Assembly (NCBI GenBank): GCA_026982315.1
Contig: JALSHI010000049.1
Location: 1 to 54,067, forward strand
Source of the DNA: Lysobacterales bacterium
GTDB lineage: Bacteria; Pseudomonadota; Gammaproteobacteria; Xanthomonadales; Marinicellaceae
Direction of reading: 5' to 3'
Length of the DNA stretch: 54,067 nucleotides
Of this stretch, positions 558 to 38,456 are shown piece after piece (positions within the stretch are counted from its first letter, which is position 1; the number at the start of each line of letters is the position of its first letter). The notes below the pieces were generated by a model. That model was not told the DNA's origin. It worked only from the letters and a program-made list of their open reading frames with translations, and searched no databases. The translations under genes and the position numbers were made by a program.

Positions 558-911
558 TGGTGGAGGTGGGGGGAGTCGAACCCCCGTCCGTTGGTTCTCT
601 GCTTGAGGCTCTACATGCTTAGTTTTGCCTTTTGGTCTTACCGCCGCCACGCCGGCAAACGGGCTGGGCGGCGGCCAGTTCAGTAAGGTTTAACCGCTGT
701 GGTCTGAACACCCACAGGCGGCGAGCTTGCTGCTTGTGACTCCCGGCTCCAGTGCCGCAAGCTGCCTGGAGCGGGAGCTAGCCAATTAAGCGGCTAGAGC
801 GTAGTTGTCGTCGTTTGCAACTATATTTAATGAACCGGTTTAACGAGGTAGATTCAACCTCGGCATGCACCTTCAAGCTTCGTAACCAACGTCGAAACCA
901 AGTACACCCCC
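558..911 (-). ncRNA. ssrA: Transfer-messenger RNA (tmRNA)
   Basis: The tRNA-like ends are clear. The minus-strand 5' end GGGGGTG (911 downwards) pairs with CACCTCC just before an encoded CCA at 558-560, and the T-arm GGGGTTCGACTCCCC is intact. The resume ORF reads GCA AAC GAC GAC AAC TAC GCT CTA GCC GCT TAA (about 816-784), giving the tag ANDDNYALAA, the tag known from Pseudomonas-type gammaproteobacteria. The length of 354 nt is normal for a one-piece tmRNA. It rescues stalled ribosomes together with SmpB and marks the product for proteolysis. A terminator follows at once and a promoter lies at 967-995, so the precursor would carry a 5' leader of about 50 nt for RNase P. Confidence 0.97.
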
Positions 912-33980: not shown

Positions 33981-34026
33981 CCCGGCTGCAACCATTCTTG
34001 ACATTGACAAAACCGCCGGTTTTTGC

Positions 34027-34043
34027 CTGTTGTGCAGTACAAT
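34027..34043 (+). promoter_or_regulatory. Possible LexA (SOS) box over a -10 element before uvrA
   Basis: CTGT-N8-ACAA (34027-34042) differs by one base from the gammaproteobacterial core CTGT-N8-ACAG, and it overlaps a good -10 hexamer TACAAT (34038-34043) 28 bp before the uvrA start. uvrA is SOS-controlled in many gammaproteobacteria. The central bases are not the usual alternating TA, so this is only a candidate. Confidence 0.35.
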
Positions 34044-34070
34044 AGAATGTTTGCATCATTCCGGCTTCTC

Positions 34071-36953
<2,883 letters not shown>

Positions 36954-37046
36954 CACACTTAAAGACAAACAAAAAATAGCACAGGCTGGCAAGAACAGAG
37001 GCCAGATTTTAGGGCTCAGTTTTGACACAGGCAGGTGCGCGGGGGT

Positions 37047-37076
37047 AAAAAAAAGGCGCGTCATGCCTGACGCGCC
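37047..37076 (-). terminator. Strong stem with U-run on the minus strand, downstream of uvrA
   Basis: A perfect 9-bp stem GGCGCGTCA/TGACGCGCC (37055-37063 and 37068-37076) has eight consecutive A on its left, i.e. eight T after the stem on the minus strand. This is an excellent intrinsic terminator for a minus-strand transcript, but the nearest annotated gene upstream on that strand is the cupin gene at 41 kb. It therefore implies an unannotated minus-strand transcript across 37.08-37.3 kb, or the stem has another role, since a plus-strand TTGACA-N18-TAAAAA promoter-like pair (37022-37051) abuts it. Confidence 0.6.
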
Positions 37077-37082
37077 TGAATA

Positions 37083-37223
37083 CTACGTGATGGGAAAGGC
37101 GCCCTTGCGGCCTCCTTTTCCATCAAGTTCCGGCCAGGAAGAGGGAGGAGAAACCTCGCCGGAGACGTAGGTTGTGGCTTTGAGGGCAATCATCCCTTTT
37201 GCAACCACAGTGCCAAAATCCAT
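37083..37223 (-). CDS. Possible 46-residue small protein antisense to the structured element
   Basis: The minus strand has an ATG at 37223 and 46 codons to a TAG at 37083, only six bases before the strong stem-plus-T8 terminator. The peptide begins MDFGTVVAKGMIALKATTYV, is rich in Gly, Lys, Pro and Ser at its end, and has no cysteine, signal peptide or membrane helix. No Shine-Dalgarno is visible before the ATG; an internal ATG (residue 11) also lacks one. Codon choice is normal for the window. It competes with the structured-RNA reading of the same bases, and at most one is likely to be the selected product. I do not recognise the protein. Confidence 0.3.
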   Translation of the reverse strand: MDFGTVVAKGMIALKATTYVSGEVSPPSSWPELDGKGGRKGAFPIT

Positions 37224-37228
37224 TGGCA
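37083..37228 (+). ncRNA. Candidate structured RNA (three-way junction plus hairpins), function unknown
   Basis: Five helices can be drawn without conflict except at one base. Outer stem CTACGT (37083-37088) with ACGTAG (37165-37170). Inside it are an 11-bp stem, 37089-37099 with 37114-37124, and a 6-bp stem TCCGGC (37129-37134) with GCCGGA (37158-37163), the latter closing a purine loop containing AGGGAGGAG. Then comes GTTG(T) (37171-37175) with (G)CAAC (37201-37205) around an inner AGGG/CCCT stem, and TGCCAA (37211-37216) with TTGGCA (37223-37228). Three pairs are G-U only if the plus strand is read (37094/37119, 37175/37201, 37182/37198), which favours a plus-strand RNA. No known riboswitch core is recognised. 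An ncRNA or a leader of the genes that follow are both possible. Confidence 0.45.
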
Positions 37229-37451
37229 GGGAACAATGAAAAAAACAATCCGGACTACCCTGTCTGCAGTGCGCCGGTTTTTGGCAATTAGCAGATTTTA
37301 TCTCAAACCCGCTTTCTTCCTGAAAGTCACCGTTAAGACAAAACCGCCAAGAAAAAGTTCACTCCGTGCCAAATCCCGCAACTGCCAACCGGCCAATCCT
37401 TTCGGGATGCGTATAATAGCCCAGAAATTCGTTTTCTCAAGCGAATTGTAT

Positions 37452-37466
37452 TTATGCTTGGCATAA
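37452..37466 (+). promoter_or_regulatory. LysR-type palindrome before the GcvA-like regulator
   Basis: TTATGC-TTG-GCATAA is a perfect 6-bp-arm palindrome that fits the T-N11-A rule for LysR-type regulators. It lies 51 bp upstream of the regulator start and downstream of a TATAAT (about 37412), so it may be an autoregulatory site. Confidence 0.45.
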
Positions 37467-37517
37467 AATATGCTAATGCGAAACACGGTTTTTGCCGATA
37501 CTTGCGAGAAGGTACCC

Positions 37518-38456
37518 ATGAGAAAATACCAACACATCCCACCCCTGCGCTCACTCAAGGCGCTGGAAGCCTCGGCCCGGCACATGAGCTTTACCAAAGC
37601 CGCCGAGGAACTGTTTGTGACCCAGGCGGCCATCAGCCACCAAATCAAAGCCCTGGAAGAACGATTGGGAACACGCCTTTTTGAGCGCCATAACCGTTTC
37701 CTGTCGCTCACTCGCGAGGGAAAAATTTACTTACAGCAAGTCCAGGATGTTCTGGAAAAGCTGGAGCGGGCGTCTCGCACCATGGCCCAACGCCACCATC
37801 ATGGCGCCATCACCATATCGGTCTTACCGTCCTTGGCCACCAAATGGCTGGCCAAGCGCTTGTGGAAATTCCAGCAAAAACACCCCGACATTGACATCCG
37901 CTTATCGGCCTATGACTGGCCGGTGGACTTTAAAACCGAAGAAGTAGACATCGCCATTCGCTATGGCAAGGGCCAGTGGCCGGGGCTGTTCAGCGAATGT
38001 TTATTAAAAGAGGACGTCTTTCCGGTGTGCTCACCCCAGTGGCTGGCCAAGACACCAACCGGCGATAAAAAAAGTCTCCTGACCCATGGGGCCTTGTTAC
38101 ATGACGACTACAGCAGCGAAGATTGGGATATGTGGCTGAAAGCCGCCGGATGCGAGCACGTCAACACCCAACGCGGCACCCGCTTCAGTCACACCATGAT
38201 GATGCTGGAAGCCGCTGAGAACGGACAAGGCATGGCTTTGGGCCGCACCCCGCTGGTCATTGACGATATCCGTCGGGGTTTGTTGGTTGCACCCTTTAGT
38301 ACCCGCATCGCCAGTGATATGGCATATTATTTTGTCTGCCCGGAAGGCAATCAGACACTGCCAAAAATCCAGCGCGTGCGCACATGGTTGAAAAATGAAG
38401 CCGCCGAAACCGAGAAGCTGGCGCAAACCTTGTTAGCACCCCACAAGGCAACCTAA
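37518..38456 (+). CDS. LysR-family transcriptional regulator, GcvA-like
   Basis: A 312-residue regulator from ATG 37518 (AAGG Shine-Dalgarno 5 bases upstream). The start RKYQHIPPLRSLKALEASAR and the helix-turn-helix MSFTKAAEELFVTQAAISHQ are of the GcvA/AmpR branch, followed by a linker helix and a substrate-binding domain with the GcvA-type segment YDWPVDFKTEEVDIAIRYG. Targets cannot be read; GcvA itself controls glycine cleavage genes, none of which is here. An in-frame ATG at 37470 would fall over the palindrome and is unlikely. Confidence 0.88.
   Translation: MRKYQHIPPLRSLKALEASARHMSFTKAAEELFVTQAAISHQIKALEERLGTRLFERHNRFLSLTREGKIYLQQVQDVLEKLERASRTMAQRHHHGAITISVLPSLATKWLAKRLWKFQQKHPDIDIRLSAYDWPVDFKTEEVDIAIRYGKGQWPGLFSECLLKEDVFPVCSPQWLAKTPTGDKKSLLTHGALLHDDYSSEDWDMWLKAAGCEHVNTQRGTRFSHTMMMLEAAENGQGMALGRTPLVIDDIRRGLLVAPFSTRIASDMAYYFVCPEGNQTLPKIQRVRTWLKNEAAETEKLAQTLLAPHKAT

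Follow-up and report, generated by a model that had tools for sequence, protein, structure and literature searches.

In both E. coli and Yersinia, the sRNA gene gcvB and gcvA are divergent; the sequence of gcvB differs from genus to genus, and in E. coli the gcvA product activates gcvB, as given in an excerpt of PMC1557403. GcvB has a conserved GU-rich region termed R1 (excerpt of PMC3536696). The Xanthomonas sRNA sX13, which comes from the same bacterial order as the DNA studied here, is structured and uses C-rich loops against mRNAs that carry G-rich motifs close to their start codons, repressing them; an excerpt of PMC3771888 gives it three loops with CCCC or CCCCC and discusses its gene as lying at polA. 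Rhizobial sRNAs with CCUCCUCCC motifs, such as NfeR1 (excerpt of PMC10746234), belong to another class of bacteria, and the RNA described below is likened to them by a shared CU-rich motif of the anti-Shine-Dalgarno type only.

The window analyzed here is the whole stretch of 54,067 nucleotides of contig JALSHI010000049.1, from a Lysobacterales bacterium of the family Marinicellaceae. Between its uvrA gene and a gene for a LysR-type protein, which is GcvA (NCBIfam PRK11139, 370.9 bits versus a cut-off of 288), lie 564 bp (36954-37517) that hold no convincing gene and mechanical ORFs only. The largest of these ORFs, 76 aa at 37236-37466 (+), is not kept in the congener G001, where a stop was read by eye after 19 codons, in agreement with the preliminary description of this stretch as lacking a confirmed gene. 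The evidence supports a structured non-coding RNA outside Rfam at this place, divergent from gcvA and convergent with uvrA (Table 1). The RNA is larger than the helices first noticed, reaching to the terminator at 37047 and, judging by a promoter motif, to about 37326. It would form an RNA family new to Rfam but of a familiar type, sitting where enteric bacteria have gcvB. The interpretation that we favor, and hold to be somewhat probable, is that 37326-37047 (-) is the gene of a trans-acting sRNA with a sigma-E-type promoter, whose CU loop blocks Shine-Dalgarno regions under envelope stress; we infer its transcription, its control by sigma-E and its pairing with Shine-Dalgarno sequences.

Table 1 Features of the uvrA-gcvA region in the window
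Feature	Position	Strand	Basis or remark
uvrA	34023..36953	+	convergent with the sRNA; first in-frame start listed, true start may be downstream
Predicted sRNA gene, ~280 nt	37047..37326	-	5' end inferred from sigma-E-type promoter motif, 3' end from terminator
Intrinsic terminator AGGCGCGTCA-GGCA-TGACGCGCCT + U8	37047..37077	-	terminator scan; 10-bp stem, four-base loop
Three-way junction closed by CTACGT/ACGTAG, holding H3 and H4	37083..37170	-	fold prediction
Hairpin H4, second arm of the junction	37089..37124	-	fold
Hairpin H3, presenting the CU loop	37129..37163	-	compensatory changes, 5/7 pairs
CU-rich loop UUUCUCCUCCCUCUU, predicted pairing site	37139..37153	-	invariant in three g1 genomes, nearly so across genera
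Hairpin H2 (TGTGGTT...AGCCACA), variable inside	37173..37209	-	fold, alignment
Hairpin H1 (TGCCAA/TTGGCA)	37211..37228	-	fold
Conserved 5' element UUUUUUUCAUUGUUCCC before H1	37229..37245	-	invariant in g1
P2, sigma-E-type motif TGAACT-N17-TCTTA (= TGAACTT-N16-TCTTA)	37333..37361	-	motif search
P1, sigma-70-like motif TTGAGA-N16-TATTAT	37413..37440	-	divergent from gcvA; block conserved in g1 and Marinicella
Candidate gcvA promoter TTGTAT-N17-TATGCT	37446..37474	+	sequence inspection
Candidate GcvA operator, dyad with ATTAG/CTAAT box	37452..37479		conserved block in g1 and Marinicella
gcvA (LysR-type regulator)	37518..38456, ATG at 37518	+	NCBIfam PRK11139

At the gathering score, Rfam gave no match in the window except a tmRNA gene at 558-911 (-) (RF00023, 223.9 bits). 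Extending the search of 36900-37600 down to E 10 yielded a best match at the sRNA of 23 bits versus 50, and the earlier remark that no known riboswitch or sRNA core was recognizable thus held in the Rfam run. Sub-threshold matches at this RNA, in the window and in a run on 14 loci (BTSR with 23-28.3 bits versus 50, suhB with 21.8-24.3 versus 41; at L009, ncS54 with 33.2 versus 43 and anti-hemB with 25.8 versus 49.5; at L010, Phe_leader with 34.1 versus 55) were rejected and are read as shared terminators and CU-rich stretches. Among titles and abstract openings, the literature on Marinicella and Marinicellaceae held no sRNA study, and that on sigmaE-dependent sRNA/Xanthomonas and on GcvA/GcvB held no description of the RNA.

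The RNA shares with GcvB its divergent encoding from gcvA, an operator-like dyad between the two genes and an intrinsic terminator. One reading is therefore a diverged GcvB, which GcvA would activate and which would repress genes for amino-acid and peptide transport; this would fit the position, the conservation of the dyad and of the sigma-70-like P1, and the variation of gcvB between genera (excerpt of PMC1557403). However, the GcvB model (RF00022) was over cut-off in 0 of 61 genomes, and none of the 20 weaker matches listed lay at a gcvA locus. That search used stricter filters, which lose some weak matches, and in the controls 4 of 14 genomes (E. coli among them) gave some match and 1 of 14 gave one over cut-off. 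Nor was a counterpart found to the conserved, single-stranded, GU-rich R1 (excerpt of PMC3536696), the conserved parts here being UUUCAUUGUUCCC and the CU-rich loop. The RNA further differs from GcvB in its sigma-E-type motif and in its presence in one genome, G024, without a close gcvA; four genomes have gcvA without the RNA. We regard a diverged GcvB of this kind as unlikely. With sX13 the RNA has in common the bacterial order and a structured form exposing a pyrimidine-rich loop, whereas a single CU loop of 13-15 nt, the three-way junction in the window, the place beside gcvA and the sigma-E-type motif ahead of it set it apart from sX13 as that RNA is described.

Strand, extent and fold

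Stable helices had been reported at 37083-37228, and folding confirmed them beyond chance. Over 37040-37260, the minus strand reached -89.8 kcal/mol (z -4.94) and the plus strand -86.1 kcal/mol (z -3.80), 0 of 200 shuffles folding as well in either case, and the minus strand gave the better fold in both stretches tested. The reported three-way junction closed by CTACGT/ACGTAG and the purine stretch with AGGGAGGAG on the plus strand were also both present.

The preliminary description had placed the RNA on the plus strand, and a structured plus-strand RNA, possibly a CsrA/RsmA sponge, can indeed draw on a fold that beats its shuffles and on the promoter-like pair TTGACA-N18-TAAAAA at 37022-37051. 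That pair, however, is not conserved in two congeners and sits in an unconserved part, and no plus-strand terminator-like site was found in the terminator scan of 36900-37600. The G-U pairs cited for the plus strand do not decide the matter: over the helices counted, the window has a single minus-strand G-U plus a single A-C cell (equal to a G-U on the plus strand), and in each congener these numbers are two and one. Over all rows, the loop hairpin has 4 G-U versus 5 A-C cells and so shows no preference for minus, whereas over all helices in ten Marinicella rows there are 7 G-U cells on the sRNA strand versus 0 A-C, a count taken on the same rows on which the structure was chosen. The purine loop with GGA, likened to CsrA/RsmA targets, is the complement of the CU-rich loop UUUCUCCUCCCUCUU, so for a minus-strand RNA this likeness would be unfounded there. 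The terminator, the promoter motifs and the conserved loop all read on the minus strand, which makes this strand most likely; a plus-strand RNA seems to us hardly credible.

The terminator scan of 36900-37600 found one site, on the minus strand, and shuffles average 1.6 such sites, so its mere presence proves little and its weight comes from the 10-bp stem and from conservation. By a script of our own, run with no shuffle control, each of the 22 loop-bearing loci has a terminator-like site on its divergent strand; the distance from the gcvA match is 333-447 nt in 21 of them and 632 nt in G002, which has an insertion. This insertion (L003/L007), of ~150 bp, falls between the sigma-E-type motif and the sRNA body, and the interior of H2 also differs in that genome.

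What follows the terminator bears on whether the RNA could act in cis, as the leader or attenuator of a gene downstream. A same-strand ORF starts 13-45 nt past the terminator at four Marinicella loci (L025, L026, L029, L030), and a copy of the loop at a second locus, treated below, ends next to a pgeF-like start. Against this, uvrA on the opposite strand follows in all three genomes of the window's genus (g1), where same-strand ORFs lie opposite uvrA, and the downstream ORFs differ between loci while the RNA is retained. Because opposite-strand uvrA follows the terminator, a leader function is unlikely in g1, and a trans-acting RNA is left; for the RNA as a whole, we rate a leader as very improbable.

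In the predicted 280-nt RNA, the CU loop is expected to be unpaired with probabilities of 0.74-0.98, giving a C/U-rich unpaired loop on a stable stem as in sX13. Across loci, the RNA is recognized by its CU-rich loop, which is closed by GG/CC and has CUCCCUCUU (CUCUCUCUU in one) at its end. Covariation in its hairpin, H3, was measured on 23 of 32 loop hairpins from both loci, 21 of them distinct, with near-duplicates left out. In the 7-bp stem, 91.8% of 147 cells pair versus 74.4% after shuffling (0 of 500 shuffles as high), five of the seven pairs changed on both sides (reached by 6 of 500 shuffles), and 18 cells changed on both sides versus 4.8 in shuffles. The covariation score was 0.399 versus 0.132 for shuffles, with slid controls at 0.001-0.128. 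Within g1, the stem pair next to the loop is C-G in the window and U-A in the congeners, and the window has one G-G mismatch. Relatives thus keep the RNA with compensatory changes, and it withstands what the preliminary description had named as counting against it: a known Rfam family, loss of conservation and uncompensated helix breaks.

The three-way junction was predicted at the same place in all three g1 genomes and, with unrelated sequences, at L009 and L010 of genus g4; at L008, also of g4, it appeared in the narrower fold but not in the wider one. Per locus the junction is weak evidence, as a junction of this kind also forms in 11-27% of the shuffles made from these six loci, and it was absent from the predicted folds of four Marinicella rows tested. 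A hairpin of other sequence stands in Marinicella at the place matching H1. The 5' element has seven of its 17 bases mostly paired in the predicted 280-nt RNA; in Marinicella, UUUCAUUGUUC is invariant in 16 rows and UUUCAUUGUUCCC in 15 of 16.

Distribution in Marinicellaceae and the order

A DNA search of 61 genomes, including that of the window, found homologs in two congeners only, G001 and G002, and the g1 alignment in sRNA orientation is conserved from the gcvA promoter region to the T-run, fading beyond. More distant copies were recognized at gcvA, which was sought in 33 genomes of the family. We examined 26 loci (L005-L030, window included; the partial or weak gcvA matches L031-L034 were excluded), and 22 of the 26 carry the RNA, that is, the CU loop and a divergent-strand terminator. 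The loop is absent at four gcvA loci of genus g4 (L011-L014). Close to the gcvA of L011, in place of the sRNA, is a stretch that looks like a tRNA gene by eye.

Scanning the GTDB collection with AGGTTTN{1,2}CCTCCCTCTTCCT returned 21 loci, 18 of them divergent to gcvA. Two more, L053 and L065, were dismissed as chance matches, having no gcvA match and no evident hairpin plus terminator by eye. The remaining one, L057, has no gcvA, and score and contig assign its copy to the Marinicella genome G024, in which no close gcvA match accompanies the RNA (best E 6.9e-14). By eye, a cold-shock-like gene lies upstream in G024, and the oxygenase-like ORF downstream is similar to the one that some Marinicella with gcvA have there. 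In Marinicella (g3), 17 of 18 genomes have this copy of the RNA, and G032 (81% complete) shows none.

A covariance model was built from ten Marinicella rows with four U (alignment A4); it was limited to these because alignment A3 mis-registers the loop stem in five-U rows. The remaining Marinicella rows scored 92.7-103.7 bits, the g1 copies 38.9, 36.8 and 29.1 (window), and the g4 copies 20.1, 18.6 and 13.6, with opposite-strand noise reaching 23.8. Over 398 genomes of the order, the model gave 22 matches at E <= 0.01, of which 20 are this RNA, all in the family; the g4 copies were not recovered in this search. The other two were rejected on reading: the match in G176 (30.8 bits) is a tRNA with a terminator, and that in G007 has no CU loop. 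At 29.1 bits, little above the noise and near the tRNA of G176, the model alone does not prove the window copy, whose case comes from position, loop letters and the alignment to congeners. The case for the g4 copies comes from position, loop letters and terminator.

A further scan took in 26 gcvA-like loci of other families in the order. At L199 and L200 (G048 and G038, one genus of another family), the gcvA ortholog is 54% identical; divergent from it stand a hairpin of terminator type whose long loop, CACCTCCCTCCCCCTTCTCTG, is CU-rich, and another hairpin whose loop, GACTCCCT, contains CU. The terminator-like hairpin was read by eye and in the fold, the terminator rule having missed it. L198 has terminator-like sites at 521 and 583 nt and no CU loop, and short CU stretches alone occur at L213, L218 and L219 too. 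The position divergent from gcvA may be older than the sequence of the RNA, a suggestion drawn from this one genus (G038, G048) outside the family. Its coincidence with the gcvB site raises the question of whether the RNA was replaced there or GcvB diverged past recognition while its neighbor stayed.

Promoter motifs and upstream elements

The pattern [TG]GAAC[TC]-N16/17-TCnnA is found in 20 of the 22 loop-bearing loci, with a spacing of 17 nt in 16 and 16 nt in four. The N17 form thus occurs at 16 of 22 loci, versus 16 of 4400 mononucleotide shuffles. Of the two exceptions, L008 has no such motif, and L010 has a loose one outside the search pattern, GGAACT-N17-TCAAT. P2 of Marinicella reads TGAACTT, then TCAAA or TCTAA 16-17 nt after TGAACT, and RpoE promoters are given as GGAACTT and TCAAA in an excerpt of PMC4890791. 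All eight genomes searched for RpoE gave a match over cut-off. In the window's genome, the rpoE leader contains AAACT-N17-TCACA; among six Marinicella rpoE leaders, one fits the search pattern and the other five have GAACT...GTCCAA by eye. The motif alone is not specific, as the strict sigma-E pattern gave 17 matches in seven genomes (six of them the sRNA) versus 9 reversed-control matches, and no known envelope-stress gene lies downstream of the matches other than the sRNA in these genomes. MicA, RybB and MicL are sigma-E-dependent sRNAs, and the present RNA, behind an RpoE-type promoter motif, is likened to them by promoter type alone.

In the alignment of 16 Marinicella regions, three conserved blocks (P1, P2 and P3) lie upstream of the RNA. 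Beside P1 stands a dyad that in Marinicella typically reads CGGATNA-N5-TTATCCG; the corresponding dyad of the window is a candidate GcvA site. P3 is found in Marinicella (L015-L030) but not in the window and consists of 11-bp direct repeats, TTCAY-N6-TTCAT, before TANAAT. Repeats of this type accompany the sRNA in all 10 Marinicella genomes that were searched and stand in nine other places, versus 0 control matches, and possibly mark the regulon of a response regulator. The other sites precede hfq-, cydA- and outer-membrane-like genes (named by eye); considered as a clue to the regulator, these neighbors name none.

Second locus and candidate partners of the loop

The sequence TTNCTCCCTCTTCC gave 28 matches in 33 genomes of the family versus 1 reversed-control match. 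By position, 19 of the matches are the sRNA, none of them in g1, whose loop differs there. The other nine, in nine Marinicella genomes, form a second locus, where CUUUACUCCCUCUUCC sits in a stem of TTGTGG- or ATGTGG-type. In L079, L080 and L082, this locus lies between rluD-like and pgeF-like genes (named by eye), and its T-run is at or next to the pgeF start. At L085, L086, L087, L090, L093, L097, L098, L107 and L111, only the loop and stem of the second locus were read. Should the loop have been copied to rluD-pgeF and kept there almost letter for letter in a different stem, a single shared partner would be implied, and the reused copy would give direct access to what the loop binds.

The loop is complementary to AAGAGGGAGGA, which suggests pairing with Shine-Dalgarno sequences, by analogy with the C-rich loops of sX13. 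Long complements of the loop in 12 genomes numbered 55 sites (12 of them the sRNA) versus 33 in the reversed control, and none of the 18 that were read was a convincing ribosome-binding site; candidates near start codons were rejected because the site lay inside another open frame or the ORF was short. This null result weakens long pairing but not a seed of 6-8 nt. As for the 5' element, GGRACAATGAAA was matched 67 times over 33 genomes, versus 20 control matches; the sRNA itself accounts for 18 of the 67, and of the other 49 sites 20 were read. The idea that this element targets starts of the form SD-AUG-Lys-Lys was dropped, with one of 20 sites read preceding an ORF of at least 100 aa.

The CU loop might instead be a decoy or sponge, to which a protein or a second RNA binds, and not an element for pairing with mRNAs. 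Its near fixation across genera, its recurrence in a different stem at the second locus and the missing extended mRNA targets in the 12-genome search would suit such a role. On the other hand, loops of such composition are used by known mRNA-pairing sRNAs, as far as excerpts of the literature describe them, and no candidate partner was identified; we see this as an improbable alternative. In the reading we prefer, a trans-acting sRNA, transcription would start from the sigma-E-type P2, perhaps also from the sigma-70-like P1 next to the GcvA operator, and would end at the intrinsic terminator. The structure would hold the one nearly invariant CU-rich loop open, and this loop would pair with purine-rich Shine-Dalgarno regions of target mRNAs and block their translation, perhaps during envelope stress.

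More tentatively, and with doubts prevailing, the site divergent from gcvA can be pictured as an old, portable sRNA site, occupied by GcvB in enterics and by an unrelated or deeply diverged envelope-stress sRNA with a CU loop in Marinicellaceae, with the CU hairpin as a reusable module copied to the rluD-pgeF transcript. What our analysis contributes is an RNA family that Rfam lacks, whose loop and promoter can be put to the test. The window's genome encodes Hfq, and hfq was present in all four genomes searched.
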